Under the pieces are notes generated by a model. It ran no database searches. It was not told the origin of the DNA and saw nothing but the letters and a program-made list of their open reading frames with translations. A DNA stretch of 39,280 nucleotides, taken from positions 1 through 39,280 of the forward strand of contig JADCHE010000057.1 in NCBI GenBank assembly GCA_020248665.1. Direction: 5' to 3'. Source of the stretch: Burkholderiales bacterium (lineage in GTDB: Bacteria > Pseudomonadota > Gammaproteobacteria > Burkholderiales > Burkholderiaceae_E). Both the position numbers and the translations under genes were made by a program. Positions 8,151 to 29,454 of the stretch are shown here, in pieces (the first letter of the stretch is position 1; every line of letters starts with the position of its first letter).

Positions 8151-8224
8151 CGCGTCGCTGCCCTATCATCGGCCGGACCGAGGCGCGGTGCGCCCGACGC
8201 CGCGCGCGAACCGAGGAGACCCGA

Positions 8225-9226
8225 ATGACCCGCCCCCCGACCCACGCCGGGCGCCGCCGCGCGATCGCGACGCTCGCCGCGCTGCCCGCGCTCGCCACCG
8301 CACCGGGCACCCGCGCGCAGGCCTTCCCGGCGCGCCCCGTGAAGATCGTCGTGCCGCACGCGGCCGGCGGCAACTCCGACGCGTTCGCGCGGATCGTCGC
8401 GCAGCGCCTGTCCGAGCGGCTCGGCCAGTCGGTCGTCGTCGAGAACCGAACCGGCGCGGGCGGCACGATCGCCTGCGCGAGCGTCGCGCGCTCGCCCGCC
8501 GACGGCTACACCGTGGTCGTCGCCGACAACGGCACGCACGCGGTCGCGCCGCAGCTCTACGGCTCGCGGCTGCAGTACGACGTGTTCAAGGACTTCACGC
8601 CGGTGTCGCTGGCGGCGACCTTCCCGACCGTGCTGCTGCTGCACCCGTCGGTGCCGGCGAGCACGCCGCGCGAGTTCGTCGCGCTGGTGAAGTCCCAGCC
8701 CGGCAAGCTGACCTACTCGTCGGCCGGCACCGGCAACGGCTCGCACCTCGCGCAGACGATCTTCCTGCACGCAGCCGGCGGGCTCGACATGATCCACGTG
8801 CCCTACAAGGGCGGCGCGCCGGCGATCCAGGCGCTGATCGCCGGCGAGGTGCAGATGACCGCGGTCAGCGTCAACACCTCGCTGCCGCACATCCGCTCCG
8901 GCCGCGCGAAACCGCTCGCGCTGGCGTCGAGCAAGCGTTCGCCCGCGCTGCCCGAACTGGCAACGCTCGGCGAGTCCGGCATCGCCGGCGCCGAGGCCGA
9001 CAACTGGCTCGCGGTGCTCGCGCCGCCGAACCTGCCGGCCGACGTCGCCGCGACGCTGACGCGCGAGTTCAACGCCACGCTGACACTTCCGGATGTCAGG
9101 GAAAGACTCGCCGGACTCGGACTCGAGGTGGTCGCGGCCGGACCGCAGCCCTACCTCGACCTGCTCAAGGTCGACGTGGCCAAGTGGACGGAGGCGGTCA
9201 AGCGAAGCGGGGCCGTGGCGGAGTGA
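8225..9226 (+). CDS. Bug-type tripartite tricarboxylate transporter receptor
   Basis: 333 residues. An N-terminal export signal with an Arg cluster (GRRRAIATLAALPALA) could be Tat-type; mature protein probably starts near QAFPARPVKIVVPHAAGG. The body carries typical Bug segments (VVVENRTGAGGTIA, HVPYKGGAPAIQALIAGEVQM). It binds a carboxylate or related solute in the periplasm for a TctAB-type secondary transporter. No tctA or tctB gene is present, so it is an orphan, as most of the many Bug genes in Burkholderiales are. A good ribosome-binding site (GAGGAGAC) lies before the ATG. TATCAT at 8164-8169 could be a -10 box. Confidence 0.92.
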   Translation: MTRPPTHAGRRRAIATLAALPALATAPGTRAQAFPARPVKIVVPHAAGGNSDAFARIVAQRLSERLGQSVVVENRTGAGGTIACASVARSPADGYTVVVADNGTHAVAPQLYGSRLQYDVFKDFTPVSLAATFPTVLLLHPSVPASTPREFVALVKSQPGKLTYSSAGTGNGSHLAQTIFLHAAGGLDMIHVPYKGGAPAIQALIAGEVQMTAVSVNTSLPHIRSGRAKPLALASSKRSPALPELATLGESGIAGAEADNWLAVLAPPNLPADVAATLTREFNATLTLPDVRERLAGLGLEVVAAGPQPYLDLLKVDVAKWTEAVKRSGAVAE

Positions 9227-9287
9227 GCGGCCCGGCCGATCGTCGGCCGCCGGAACGGCGAATCCAGGGCCGGGCGCGCGCTGACGC

Positions 9288-9295
9288 GTTGCAAC
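9288..9295. repeat. GTTGCAAC palindrome, upstream copy
   Basis: A perfect 8-bp palindrome that recurs at 9382-9389, the two copies being 94 bp apart, about nine helical turns. A related half (GTTGCAC) lies at 9354-9360 over the -35 box of the candidate small RNA promoter. The arrangement suggests operator sites for one regulator, possibly with looping. Between the copies is an imperfectly spaced stem, CGAAGACCC (9304-9312) / GGGTCTTCG (9332-9340). Confidence 0.35.
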
Positions 9296-9354
9296 AGACG
9301 GAACGAAGACCCTTTGTCATAGTCGGAATGCGGGTCTTCGGGCAGGGGGGGGTG

Positions 9355-9383
9355 TTGCACCAGGTTCGCCCGAAAGATTATGT
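9355..9383 (+). promoter_or_regulatory. Sigma-70-like promoter of the candidate small RNA
   Basis: TTGCAC (9355-9360) and TTATGT (9378-9383) are separated by exactly 17 bp, with an A+T-rich run around the -10 that stands out in this G+C-rich window. The predicted start is about 9389-9391. No protein start follows within a plausible distance; an intrinsic terminator does, 60 bp downstream. Confidence 0.55.
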
Positions 9384-9389
9384 TGCAAC
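9382..9389. repeat. GTTGCAAC palindrome, downstream copy at the predicted transcription start
   Basis: Second perfect copy of the 8-bp palindrome, lying between the -10 box and the predicted start of the small RNA, a typical position for a repressor operator. Confidence 0.35.
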
Positions 9390-9480
9390 GCACCAGCAAC
9401 CTGGTTAACATCCCGTCTGTCTCCTCCACCTCCTCAATGGTGGTTTCAGCCCGCGCCGCTCGGCGCGGGCTTTTTCTTTC
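9390..9480 (+). ncRNA. Candidate small RNA with an anti-Shine-Dalgarno hairpin loop
   Basis: About 90 nt with three predicted hairpins. Hairpin 1 is ACCAG/CTGGT (9392-9405). Hairpin 2 is CCACC (9426-9430) / GGTGG (9439-9443), whose 8-nt loop is TCCTCAAT. Hairpin 3 is the terminator at 9448-9471. The stretch 9427-9434, CACCTCCT, is identical to the anti-Shine-Dalgarno 3' end of 16S rRNA, and a second C/T-rich run, CTCCTCC, precedes it. Known: small RNAs with CCUCC-type loops occur in several proteobacteria, and an Rfam family of toxic small RNAs from Betaproteobacteria exists; I cannot test membership. Inferred: it could pair with ribosome-binding sites and repress translation. No open frame with a start signal is evident within it. 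Confidence 0.6.
9448..9480 (+). terminator. Intrinsic terminator of the small RNA
   Basis: A perfect 10-bp stem, AGCCCGCGCC (9448-9457) / GGCGCGGGCT (9462-9471), with a 4-nt loop is followed by TTTTTCTTTC. This is the best-formed intrinsic terminator in the window. The remaining gene-free stretch, 9481-9690, shows no convincing feature. Confidence 0.85.
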
Positions 9481-9690
9481 CGGCGCCGGTTCCGCGCTGC
9501 CGCACCGGGCGTCGGCGGCGACCGCCCCGTACCATCCGCCGGACTCGATCCCTGCCTCGACACATGTCCTTGCGTTGAATAGGGCTGATCGGAATGCGAA
9601 CCGTTACCGTACGTTCAGGCTGAGCGGGCCGCGTCCGACCGCAGCCGGGACGAGCCGGGGGCGGCCGGGCCCCGGCTGCGCGCGCCGGCC

Positions 9691-10863
9691 TCAGCCCGGC
9701 CGCCGGCCCCGGTGCAGGTCGTGCGTGACGAACGGTTCCGCCGGCCGGTCGAGCCAGTCGGGGTGATCGAGCGTGCCGCGCAGGTCGGCGAGCCCGCGCG
9801 CCCAGTGCCTGCGCATCGACAGCGCCGAGAACTGGTAGTCCTTGAAGTGGCCCTCGTTGTCGTCGTCGTCGTAGATCAGGTGCACGACGTTGACGCGACG
9901 GTCGTCGGCGAGCTCGGCCGCGCGCCTGACCGCCGGGTGGTCGCGATGCTTCGCGGGCACCAGATCGAGCAGCTCGCGCAGCAGCGCCGCGGTGCGCTGC
10001 TCCTCCTGCAGCCGGTCCGTGACCCAGCGGGTGCGGCTCGAGAACTGGATGTCCTTCTGCCGGTTGGCCACCTCGGCGAGGTCGCGCGGCGCAGCGCCCT
10101 TCGCGCTCCACAGGTCGACCTGGAACGCGAGCACGTCCTCGCCGCGCGGCGCGCCGTCGAGCACCGCCTGCAGCGGCGTGTTCGACACCAGCCCGCCGTC
10201 CCACCACCACGCGCGGCCGACGCGCACCGCGCCGAAGCCAGGCGGCAACGCGCCCGAGGCCATGAAGTGCTCTGGCCCGAGCCGCTCCTCGGTGCTGTCG
10301 AAGTACCTGAAGTTCCCGGTCTCGACGTCGACCGCACCGACCGACACGCGCGGCGCGTGCCTCGAGGCGATGCGGTCGAAGTCGACGAGGCGCTCGAGCG
10401 TCTCGCGCAGCGGCGCGGTGTCGTACCAGCTCGCCGCCTCGGGGCCCGGCCGGTGCAGCGCCCAAGGCGGCGGCACGCGAGGCCGGAAGAAGCCGTTCTG
10501 GCCCTCGATCAGGGCGCGCCACGCCTCGCCCGCGTAGAGCGCCGCCATGCCGCCCTCGAAGGCGTGCAGCCACGGCTCGAGCATCGCGGGCACCGCGTTC
10601 AGCGGCGAGGCCGGCAGCGCCGGCGGGCGGCAGATCGTGTCCCAGAACGCCTGCAACCGCTCGACGCGCCGCTCGGGCGGATTGCCCGCCCACACCGCCG
10701 CGTTCAGCGCGCCGATCGAGATGCCGGCGACCCAGTTCGGCTCGACGCCGGCCTCGGCCAGCCCCTCGACGACGCCGCCCTGGTAGGCGCCGAGCGCGCC
10801 GCCGCCCTGCAGCACGAGGGCAACGACGGGGTAGCGCGCGGCGATCCCGGCGCAGTGCTTCAC
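9691..10863 (-). CDS. Patatin-like phospholipase with DUF3734-type C-terminus
   Basis: 390 residues. The patatin catalytic parts are present: oxyanion loop QGGGALGAY (19-27), nucleophile elbow GISIG with Ser49, and the dyad aspartate in WWWDGGLV (Asp222). The C-terminal 140 residues, with FQVDLWSAKG and RVNVVHLIY, look like the DUF3734 extension seen on many proteobacterial patatins. It would hydrolyse acyl esters of lipids; no signal peptide is visible. The GTG at 10863 overlaps the stop of the ccdB-like gene (GTGA), so it is translationally coupled to a toxin-antitoxin pair, which is unusual. The frame is open further upstream but would then run through the toxin gene. Confidence 0.88.
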   Translation of the reverse strand: MKHCAGIAARYPVVALVLQGGGALGAYQGGVVEGLAEAGVEPNWVAGISIGALNAAVWAGNPPERRVERLQAFWDTICRPPALPASPLNAVPAMLEPWLHAFEGGMAALYAGEAWRALIEGQNGFFRPRVPPPWALHRPGPEAASWYDTAPLRETLERLVDFDRIASRHAPRVSVGAVDVETGNFRYFDSTEERLGPEHFMASGALPPGFGAVRVGRAWWWDGGLVSNTPLQAVLDGAPRGEDVLAFQVDLWSAKGAAPRDLAEVANRQKDIQFSSRTRWVTDRLQEEQRTAALLRELLDLVPAKHRDHPAVRRAAELADDRRVNVVHLIYDDDDNEGHFKDYQFSALSMRRHWARGLADLRGTLDHPDWLDRPAEPFVTHDLHRGRRPG

Positions 10864-11182: not shown

Positions 11183-11449
11183 TCAGAACGCGCGCAGGGT
11201 CGCGCCGGAGGTGCCTTCGCGCTCGACCTGCTCGCGGTAGGCGTCGAGCCACTCCCGGTGCGCCTCGACGAACTGCCTGCGGCGCGCGCGCAGGCTCGCG
11301 CCCGAGGGACGCGTGACCGACTCCCACTGCTCGAACGAGACGATCACGGTGTCGGGCCGGCCGTCCTTCTCGACGATCACCGGACCCCGCTTCGCCTCGC
11401 TGCACACCTGGCCGAACCGGTTCTTCGCGTCGGTCGCGCTGATCCTCAT
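11183..11449 (-). CDS. Phd/YefM-type antitoxin
   Basis: 88 residues. The N-terminus (RISATDAKNRFGQVCSEAKRG, then PVIVEKDGRPDTVIVSFEQWESV) is the Phd/YefM DNA-binding fold; the C-terminal half is charged and helical (RARRRQFVEAHREWLDAYREQVERE), as expected for a toxin-wrapping tail. Phd/YefM antitoxins usually pair with Doc or RelE/YoeB toxins; the next gene, 5 nt downstream, is CcdB-like, normally partnered by CcdA. An ATG at 11488 is also in frame but lies in the promoter, so 11449 is preferred. Likely autoregulates through the palindromic site at 11466-11480. Confidence 0.82.
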   Translation of the reverse strand: MRISATDAKNRFGQVCSEAKRGPVIVEKDGRPDTVIVSFEQWESVTRPSGASLRARRRQFVEAHREWLDAYREQVEREGTSGATLRAF

Positions 11450-11465
11450 GCCCACCCCGTATCGA

Positions 11466-11485
11466 TGGCCAGATTGGCCATTGTA
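11466..11485 (-). promoter_or_regulatory. Promoter/operator of the antitoxin-toxin-patatin unit
   Basis: On the minus strand TACAAT (11485-11480) resembles a -10 box 30 nt upstream of the antitoxin ATG. Overlapping it are two 6-bp palindromes, TGGCCA at 11475-11480 and at 11466-11471, separated by 3 bp, so that the 15 bp also form one larger inverted repeat. This is the expected geometry for an autoregulatory antitoxin operator. I see no good -35 box. Confidence 0.5.
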
Positions 11486-11536
11486 CATCGGGACGACCTG
11501 CGCCGGACGTCCCGTGCGCCCGGCCCGGCCCTCCGC

Positions 11537-27892: not shown

Positions 27893-28046
27893 CGCGACCG
27901 GACCGTGGGCGACGACGCGCAGTGTAGGCCAGCGCGGCCCGCGCGCGCCGGCCGAGGCGTGCCACCGGTCGCGGAACGCCCGCGCCGCCACCCGGCCTCG
28001 CGATCGCGTACACTGCGCGCCTCGCGCGGGGCTCGCCCGCGCGCAC

Positions 28047-28136
28047 TGCTGGGGGTGCCGTGCCCGCGCGCGTCGCGGGTCGCGGCTGAGAGAGTCCCCT
28101 CGAACCTGATCGAGGTCATCCTCGCGTAGGGAAGCA
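28047..28136 (+). promoter_or_regulatory. TPP riboswitch (THI element) ahead of cytX
   Basis: The conserved THI-box parts are all present in order: GGGGTGCC (28052-28059), GCTGAGAG (28085-28092), ACCTGATC (28104-28111), then GGTCATCCTCGCGTAGGGA. P1 pairs TGCT (28047-28050) with AGCA (28133-28136). The ribosome-binding site of cytX, AGGGA (28128-28132), is itself part of the conserved 3' end of the aptamer, and the ATG begins 4 nt after P1. Binding of TPP should therefore hide the site directly. An 8-bp hairpin (28023-28043) precedes the aptamer and TACACT at 28009-28014 may be the -10 box. Confidence 0.93.
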
Positions 28137-28140
28137 CACC

Positions 28141-29454
28141 ATGTCGACGTCCGTCGTCCGCAATTCCGCGCTCGTCCCCGTTCCCTCCGCCGACCGGCCA
28201 TTCGGCTGGCGCGACCACGCCTCGCTGTGGCTGAGCCTCGGCGTCGGCCTGCTGGTGATGCAGGTCGGCTCGTTCCTCGTGCCCGCGATGGGCACGCAGG
28301 CGGCGCTGCTCGCGATCGTGGGCGGCTCGGTGCTCGGCGCCGGCCTGCTCGCCTGGACCGCGAAGATCGGCTGCGACAGCGGCCTGTCGAGCGCGGGCCT
28401 GATGCACGCGACCTACGGCAGCGCGTTCGCGCGGCTGCCGATCGTGCTCAACATCGTCCAGCTGGTCGGCTGGACCACCTTCGAGCTGGTGGTGATGCGC
28501 GACGGCGTGGTCGCGATCCTGCGGCAGGCCGGCCTGCTCCCGCCCGCGGCGCCCGCCGCGCCCGAGGCCGCGCTCGCGCTGACCTCGCCGTGGTCGATGC
28601 CCTGGCCGGCGACGGTCGCCACGCTCGCGTTCGGCGCGGTGCTGGTGCTGCTGGTGAACGGGCAGATGACGACGCTGGTGCGCCGCTTCATGAGCCGCTT
28701 CGGGCTGCCGCTGGTGGTGCTGTCGCTCGCGTGGCTGACCTGGCAGTTCCTCGGCCGTGCGCAGGCGCAGGGCTGGGAGGCGATCTGGAACCGGCCCGGC
28801 ACGGGCGGCATGAGCACGCTCGGCGCGCTCGACCTGGTCATCGCGATGCCGATCTCCTGGCTGCCACTGGTCGCGGACTTCTCGCGGCACGGCCGCGACG
28901 GCCGCGGCGCGCTCGCCGGCACCTGGCTCGGCTACGCGATCGCCAACGCCTGGTGCTATGCGCTCGGCGTGCTGGTCGCGCTGACCACGCCGTCGGCCGA
29001 CCTGGTCGCCGCGCTGCTGCTCGCGCAGGGCGGCCTGGTCGCGCTCGGCCTCATCCTGATCGACGAGCTCGACAACGCCTACGGCGACGTCTACTCCGGC
29101 GCGGTCGCCGGCCACAGCCTCGCGCCCGGCGGCAGCGTGCGGCGCTGGGGCGTCGTGATGGCGATCGCCTGCACCGCGCTCGCGCTGGTGCTGCCGATGC
29201 ACGGGCTCGAACCGTTCCTGCTGATGCTGTCGTCGGTGTTCGTGCCGCTGTACGGCACGATCCTCGGCCGCCTGGGCGGGGCGCGCGACGTCGCCGCGCG
29301 CGTCGGCGCGATGGCGGTGGACTGGACGACGGTCGGCATCTGGGTCGCCGGTGTGGCCTGCTTCCACCTGCTGCCGAAGCTCGCTCCGGTGCTCGGCGCG
29401 GCCCTGCCGACGCTCGCGCTGACCTTCGTGCTGGCGCGGCTGACGCGGCGCTGA
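28141..29454 (+). CDS. cytX: NCS1-family hydroxymethylpyrimidine transporter CytX
   Basis: 437 residues with about twelve membrane segments and NCS1 features (ASLWLSLGVGLLVMQVGSFLVPAMG, VGWTTFELVVMRDG, AMPISWLPLVADFSRHGRDG). CytX proteins are the NCS1 carriers found next to thiamine genes or under TPP riboswitches and are predicted to import hydroxymethylpyrimidine for thiamine synthesis. The riboswitch immediately upstream supports this assignment and implies repression when TPP is plentiful. No thi gene follows: the next gene is a luciferase-like oxidoreductase beyond a strong hairpin. Confidence 0.93.
   Translation: MSTSVVRNSALVPVPSADRPFGWRDHASLWLSLGVGLLVMQVGSFLVPAMGTQAALLAIVGGSVLGAGLLAWTAKIGCDSGLSSAGLMHATYGSAFARLPIVLNIVQLVGWTTFELVVMRDGVVAILRQAGLLPPAAPAAPEAALALTSPWSMPWPATVATLAFGAVLVLLVNGQMTTLVRRFMSRFGLPLVVLSLAWLTWQFLGRAQAQGWEAIWNRPGTGGMSTLGALDLVIAMPISWLPLVADFSRHGRDGRGALAGTWLGYAIANAWCYALGVLVALTTPSADLVAALLLAQGGLVALGLILIDELDNAYGDVYSGAVAGHSLAPGGSVRRWGVVMAIACTALALVLPMHGLEPFLLMLSSVFVPLYGTILGRLGGARDVAARVGAMAVDWTTVGIWVAGVACFHLLPKLAPVLGAALPTLALTFVLARLTRR

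Follow-up and report, generated by a model that had tools for sequence, protein, structure and literature searches.

A predicted PhaR operator at the promoter of an RF02278 small RNA gene suggests a link between carbon storage and translation control in Burkholderiales

The window (the whole stretch of 39,280 nucleotides that was analysed) encodes a small RNA (sRNA) of the known Rfam family RF02278, and the promoter of this gene carries a predicted operator for PhaR (Table 1). The sRNA itself is ordinary; what is new is its upstream regulation. We consider it likely that this RF02278 sRNA acts at ribosome-binding sites, is repressed by PhaR, is released by poly-hydroxybutyrate (PHB) and curbs carbon uptake. 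Family membership, a covarying structure, a conserved promoter with its dyad and a phaR gene in the same genome were observed directly; the transcription start, PhaR binding, the direction of control and the targets are the parts that we infer. Regulation of the window sRNA by PhaR is a strong prediction from its sequence.

Table 1. Positions of the sRNA gene, its predicted control elements and other features in the window
Feature	Position	Strand	Basis
Candidate target site GAGGAGAC before the TctC-type receptor gene (8225-9226)	8213-8220	+	Complementary to the sRNA 5' end over 8 nt
Possible further PhaR-like site, about 100 bp 5' of the predicted operator	9281-9297		1 mismatch to the 17-mer palindrome
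Promoter: -35 TTGCAA (9383-9388), 17 nt, -10 TAACAT (9406-9411)	9383-9411	+	Read from the sequence; homologue footprint
Predicted operator for PhaR, TGCAACGCACCA, which overlaps the -35 box	9384-9395		Exact match to TGCRNYGCASMA
RF02278 sRNA (Betaproteobacteria toxic / double-hairpin), about 61 nt	9418-9478	+	Rfam covariance model and fold
Unpaired 5' UGUCUCCU (site 1), a seed directed at ribosome-binding sites	9418-9425	+	MFE fold, homologues
Hairpin 1, stem CCACC/GGUGG, loop UCCUCAAU (site 2)	9426-9443	+	Fold and covariation
Hairpin 2 and U-tract, intrinsic terminator	9448-9478	+	Terminator scan and covariation
Phd/YefM-type antitoxin gene	11186-11488	-	PF02604, 37.7 bits versus cut-off 29.8
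TPP riboswitch	28041-28149	+	62.8 bits versus gathering score 54.3

The RF02278 covariance model matched the sRNA over its full length (cmscan against Rfam, model positions 1-64, 62.2 bits versus a gathering score of 50, E-value 2.5e-10), so that a new member of the betaproteobacterial toxic sRNA family, which the initial annotation had put forward for an Rfam check, is indeed present. Membership in MmgR (RF00519; 19.4 bits versus a gathering score of 41), SorY and anti-hemB was rejected, the RNA scoring below the gathering score of each. The initial annotation had placed the 5' end near 9390 and described three hairpins in about 90 nt. We put the 5' end most likely at 9418, just 3' of the -10 box, because the RF02278 model begins there and the promoter positions, with their spacing, are conserved in homologues. 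Position 9390, like the first hairpin of that description, falls between the -35 and -10 boxes and would therefore not be transcribed; a start at 9418 gives an RNA of about 61 nt with two hairpins. Nor is the stretch without an open frame, as had been stated: a mechanical ORF of 128 aa (9380-9766) crosses it, although nothing marks this ORF as a gene.

The predicted fold of the RNA is stable (-31.2 kcal/mol, z -6.35), and none of 200 shuffled sequences was as stable. Hairpin 1 has a 5-bp stem (9426-9430 with 9439-9443) and holds UCCUC in its loop (9431-9438), as had been read from the letters; hairpin 2 is a 10-bp terminator stem, and the terminator scan returned a strong terminator at 9448-9471 followed by the U-tract already recognized. 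Homologues were drawn from a set of 118 RF02278 genes, which combines 58 over-cut-off hits from relatives with 60 loci hand-picked among the matches listed for a sample of the order to span families. In an alignment of 45 of these sequences, selected by us, the two-hairpin structure leaves 87.6% of cells paired versus 75.3% after shuffling, with a covariation score of 0.345 versus 0.139; neither value was reached by any of 500 shuffles, and slid versions of the structure gave at most 43.9% of cells paired and a covariation of 0.168. Two weaker measures were reached by some shuffles (pairs changed on both sides by 5 of 500, pair types by 130 of 500). Helix 1 is paired in 99.1% of cells, with three of its five pairs changed on both sides (CG to UA and CG to AU among the paired changes), and helix 2 in 79.7%, with five of seven. 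Compensatory changes, for which the initial annotation had proposed to look, are therefore seen in both hairpins of the RNA, and covariation backs the two-hairpin structure that characterizes RF02278.

The octamer CACCTCCT, which we take, as the initial annotation did, to equal the 16S anti-Shine-Dalgarno sequence, lies at 9427-9434 as given there. Only its UCCU is unpaired in the predicted fold, and it has two matches in the window versus 0.55 expected (two or more in 10 of 100 shuffles). On its own it is weak evidence, the statistical weight coming from the Rfam match; this match and the covariation overruled a reading of the octamer as a chance occurrence. GTCTCCTCC stands at RNA positions 2-10 in 113/118 homologues, the window copy included, and an unpaired 5' CU tract of the UGUCUCCUCC type is a trait of RF02278. 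The unpaired 5' UGUCUCCU and the loop UCCUC can both face ribosome-binding sites.

RF02278 was found over the cut-off in 40/61 relatives, in 119/299 genomes sampled from the order and in 3/274 genomes drawn from the class, all three of the latter belonging to the same order. In the class draw, 20 more genomes from other orders had matches of E 1e-6 or better that stayed below the cut-off, and none of 14 control genomes had an over-cut-off match. The core pattern of the window-type RNA matched 10 contigs, all metagenome-assembled, nine of them titled Burkholderiales bacterium; the window-type RNA in the metagenome-assembled L104 (CAMCXH010000112.1) stands under the title Bordetella parapertussis, which may be a mislabel. 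Some lineages carry 6-9 RF02278 matches, as seen in G043 (eight over-cut-off copies) and other f8 genomes, and some copies stand in tandem at a spacing of about 380 nt (in G043, C1:1646160 and 1646538). For Herbaspirillum seropedicae SmR1, a PHB-making laboratory strain, four RF02278 copies have been reported (PMC7011215).

Two layouts were distinguished. In the short layout, to which the window copy belongs, transcription of the RNA begins at a promoter of its own and the dyad described below lies at -35 to -31 (26 loci). In the leader layout the dyad is mostly at -92 to -57 (41 hits), with a leader 5' of the RNA, which resembles the processed RNAs S17 and ncS27. In all eight leader-layout loci tested rplM lies just downstream, and the rplM neighbourhood of leader-type copies (L002 307-369, L136-L143) was seen to be stable across genera. 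In the window's own genome (218 contigs, 5.07 Mb) a single further copy is over the cut-off (C159:307-369, 69.9 bits), and rplM (ribosomal protein L13, PF00572) starts 127 bases downstream of it. Among ten same-genus loci the Bug-receptor neighbour of the window copy was found at five and its patatin neighbour at three, with absence at two of them (L134, L135) saying little, since less than 1 kb of upstream sequence is present there. The RNA is thus not confined to the neighbourhood that it has in the window.

The promoter-like pair with a 17-bp spacer noted initially can be read in the sequence, but a consensus scanner returned 0 sites for it. T-35, T-12, A-11 and T-7 are invariant in 20/20 homologues with the dyad at -34, the position it has in the window. 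At positions that had not been selected for (T-35, C-24, A-23), the same 20 loci are also invariant. When the dyad spacing was relaxed to -35 to -31, TA at -12/-11 together with T at -7 was found in 22/26 loci.

Published PhaR sites have the consensus TGCRNYGCASMA in Bradyrhizobium (PMC6201568) and the palindrome YTKNTGCRNYGCANMAR in Ralstonia (PMC12849132), and a like palindrome is given for the Sinorhizobium PhaR site (PMC12542648). Such a site in the core promoter is a trait of PhaR-controlled promoters, and the window has it: the 12-mer is matched exactly and the 17-mer, at 9380-9396, with 1 mismatch. The dyad, TTGCRNYGCA, was first noticed by eye in aligned upstream regions, and TGCRNYGCA was used as the search core. 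Of the 118 RF02278 genes, 76 have this core in the 150 nt upstream and 18 have it at -300 to -151, while 63 other half-site dyads put through the same test gave a mean of 0.98 and a maximum of 4 of 118. The published flank SMA, which lies outside the search core, accompanies 67/83 core sites (63/76 loci), compared with 5/56 when 399 kb of the window's own genome were examined. By genus, at least one locus carries the core in 45 of the 50 genera with phaR. As a positive control we used phasin genes, the known PhaR targets, searching from -200 to +30 of the alignment-placed start, a wider range than for the sRNA genes (150 nt); the core is present at 28/29 loci (30 loci, one dropped because it gave no alignment), and the phasin gene of the window's own genome bears the same operator. 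As a negative control, 6S RNA genes have the core within 150 nt upstream at 1/25 loci (26 loci, with 14/31 genomes over the 6S cut-off; one locus dropped as it had no upstream sequence).

phaR (PF07879) was found in 202/299 order genomes and in 50/61 relatives including the window's own genome, where it lies on contig C216 (E-value 6.0e-31). The core was present at 0/12 loci from genomes at least 95% complete that gave no phaR hit; four of these loci are in genomes among the 20 listed of 97 phaR-less ones, and eight were assigned by absence from the list of 202. It was present at three loci without a phaR hit (G004, G019 and G024), where the genomes are 91, 78 and 57% complete. The association between phaR and the core gave a Fisher P-value of 0.00024, which is not a clean probability because the loci are related by descent, and 60 of the 118 loci behind it were hand-picked.

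An unlikely alternative to control by PhaR is that the RF02278 sRNA does act at ribosome-binding sites but that the TGC dyad is bound by another regulator, or by an activator. The case for PhaR as the binder is one of sequence evidence, and the exact core is missing at 30/103 loci of phaR-bearing genomes. Many of these are second or third copies; they include three of four rplM-type copies examined from the same genus, six of the eight G043 copies and the two phaR-bearing genomes from genus g2. The second copy of the window's own genome has its core hit off-position at -19 and a one-mismatch dyad at the promoter. At several phaR-less loci an AT-rich dyad was seen by eye, so regulators may interchange. 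Against another regulator stand the exact published PhaR consensus with its flanks, the same dyad at nearly all phasin loci, and its absence from all 12 loci of near-complete genomes that lack phaR. The AT-rich dyad, which resembles ATATTAGA..AAT.CTAATA and takes the place of the PhaR-like site at promoters (L162, L163, L165, L199-L202), was observed in the phaR-less genomes G249, G226, G311, G160, G278, G122 and G154 and also in two genomes of a phaR-bearing genus (G270, G291). Counting it at phaR-less loci with a pattern that misfits the dyad spacing yielded 0 near and 1 far.

Across the window's own genome the PhaR motif shows no clear excess over a reversed control (20 versus 23 and 32 versus 25); only its location is informative, not the whole-genome count. 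The possible second site upstream of the sRNA gene is one of the 32 one-mismatch 17-mer places in 5.07 Mb, for which the reversed-pattern control gives 25, and is weak evidence when taken alone. Other sites were seen between an adh_short (phaB-like) gene and phaR (C216:26106-26118), before a ptsN-like gene (C122:2978-2994), before an acetate-CoA ligase gene (C68:12824-12840) and between uvrB and an aromatic aminotransferase gene, with several more inside genes. Those at the phaR, ptsN-like and acetate-CoA ligase genes form a candidate PhaR regulon and would fit a carbon regulon.

Blocking of ribosome-binding sites is the likely action of the sRNA, judged from its relatives. The initial suggestion that it could cover many such sites agrees with what has been demonstrated or predicted for them (PMC11722255, PMC5688073). 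In Bordetella, 92 genes rise without S17, 70 of them with complementarity at or near ribosome-binding sites, and a reporter showed direct repression of BP2158 by S17, with no effect on two of the four other candidates tested (PMC11722255). For the double-hairpin RNAs of Burkholderia cenocepacia, 55-80% of predicted interactions fall in the ribosome-binding-site region (PMC5688073), and ncS27 affects phenylalanine, tyrosine and carbohydrate genes (PMC10987360). In the window, the neighbouring gene for a TctC-type solute receptor carries GAGGAGAC on the 5' side of its ATG, at a distance of four bases. Of five orthologues of this gene, four have GAGGAGACAC 5' of an ATG that lies upstream of the aligned part, and in the fifth (G007) it was not found. 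Over 438 kb, sites of extended complementarity showed no significant enrichment 5' of start codons (5/27 versus a background of 9.7%, P-value 0.18). A duplexfold of the sRNA with the Bug leader was given no weight because it opened both sRNA hairpins.

It is highly improbable that the RNA is genuinely toxic, that is, causes growth arrest or addiction by sequestering ribosomes or by blocking most translation. Such an action could be read into the anti-Shine-Dalgarno-like sequence at 9427-9434 and into the Phd/YefM-type antitoxin gene 1.7 kb off, although nothing ties that gene to the RNA. The family name itself goes back to toxicity of E. coli clones (Kimelman 2012, as cited in PMC4603805 and PMC5688073). 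The word "toxic" describes an overexpression effect and not a natural role. The conserved promoter has a regulator-type site, and the genome carries two copies. Overexpressed S17, which has defined targets, leaves exponential growth of E. coli unimpaired and impairs entry into stationary phase only modestly (PMC11722255), and overexpression of ncS27 slows growth on some substrates with no effect on others (PMC10987360). Growth inhibition is not uniform among relatives (S17, PMC11722255). That no RNA is transcribed and a CU-rich stretch lies 5' of a terminator by chance can practically be dismissed: the octamer alone is near chance and the scanner gave no consensus promoter, but the Rfam E-value, the covariation, the promoter footprint in 20 loci and the conservation of the RNA in different gene neighbourhoods all stand against it.

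The window sRNA resembles ncS03, ncS05, ncS27 and ncS62 of B. cenocepacia (PMC5688073) in its full-length match to the family model, its two hairpins, the CU-rich unpaired 5' end and loop, the length of about 60 nt and the U-tract. With Bordetella S17 it shares the proposed repression directed at ribosome-binding sites, and the S17 authors report a similar 5' end, with 2 mismatches to the RF02278 RNA bdhR1 in the 5' region (PMC11722255). S17 differs in being processed from a 190-nt precursor to 67 nt (PMC11722255), whereas the window RNA probably starts directly at 9418. The closest precedent for the proposed control is MmgR (alpha-r8, RF00519) of Sinorhizobium, a short Hfq-dependent sRNA with an unpaired CUCCC in the Rfam consensus, a promoter bound and repressed by PhaR (AniA) and a place in PHB physiology; gel shifts show binding of S. 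meliloti PhaR to the MmgR promoter, and repression of MmgR by this protein is reported (PMC12542648). MmgR belongs to a different, alphaproteobacterial family, for which NtrC nitrogen control has also been reported. A further parallel is the phasin gene phaP1 of Ralstonia eutropha, which has YTKNTGCRNYGCANMAR near its -35 box and start site and whose repression is relieved by PHB granules (PMC12849132), as we propose for the window sRNA. The described targets of the PhaR regulon are phasin genes (PMC12849132), and no RF02278 target was found in the literature searched.

In the circuit that we propose, the CU-rich 5' end and hairpin loop of the trans-acting RF02278 sRNA would pair with purine-rich ribosome-binding sites and lower translation of uptake and catabolic genes, as relatives suggest. 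The position of the operator over the -35 box suggests repression, so that without PHB, PhaR would bind there and keep the sRNA off. PHB granules sequester PhaR (PMC12849132), and the RNA would therefore be made when carbon is stored: once granules form and take up PhaR, the sRNA may damp further carbon import. In glucose medium ncS03, ncS05 and ncS27 rise 8.0-, 6.9- and 4.3-fold (PMC5688073), which fits the PhaR model if this may be extended to those genes.

Regulation of sRNA accumulation in B. cenocepacia has been called unknown (PMC5688073), an unidentified repressor has been postulated for S17 (PMC11722255), and according to a 2021 review (PMC8401924) the part played by riboregulation when Cupriavidus necator makes PHB "remains undeciphered". 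Among the matches listed in the open-licence literature we found no paper that joins PhaR with RF02278, and the main texts of PMC5688073, PMC11722255, PMC7011215, PMC10987360 and PMC4603805 make no mention of PhaR. For three copies, Sass 2017 (PMC5688073, Fig. S3) mentions "a common upstream motif", so the present motif may already have been noticed there. As far as the open-licence literature was searched, the predicted PhaR operator at an RF02278 gene appears to be an unreported regulatory link. RF02278 is widespread, and this operator would name its regulator, linking carbon storage to translation control. Overall, and with somewhat less confidence than for the window sRNA, we suggest that RF02278 is probably the RNA arm of PHB-granule sensing across Burkholderiales, shutting down carbon import and catabolism. 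If this is true, the circuit would parallel that of alphaproteobacterial MmgR while being built on a different RNA family, a case of convergent wiring.
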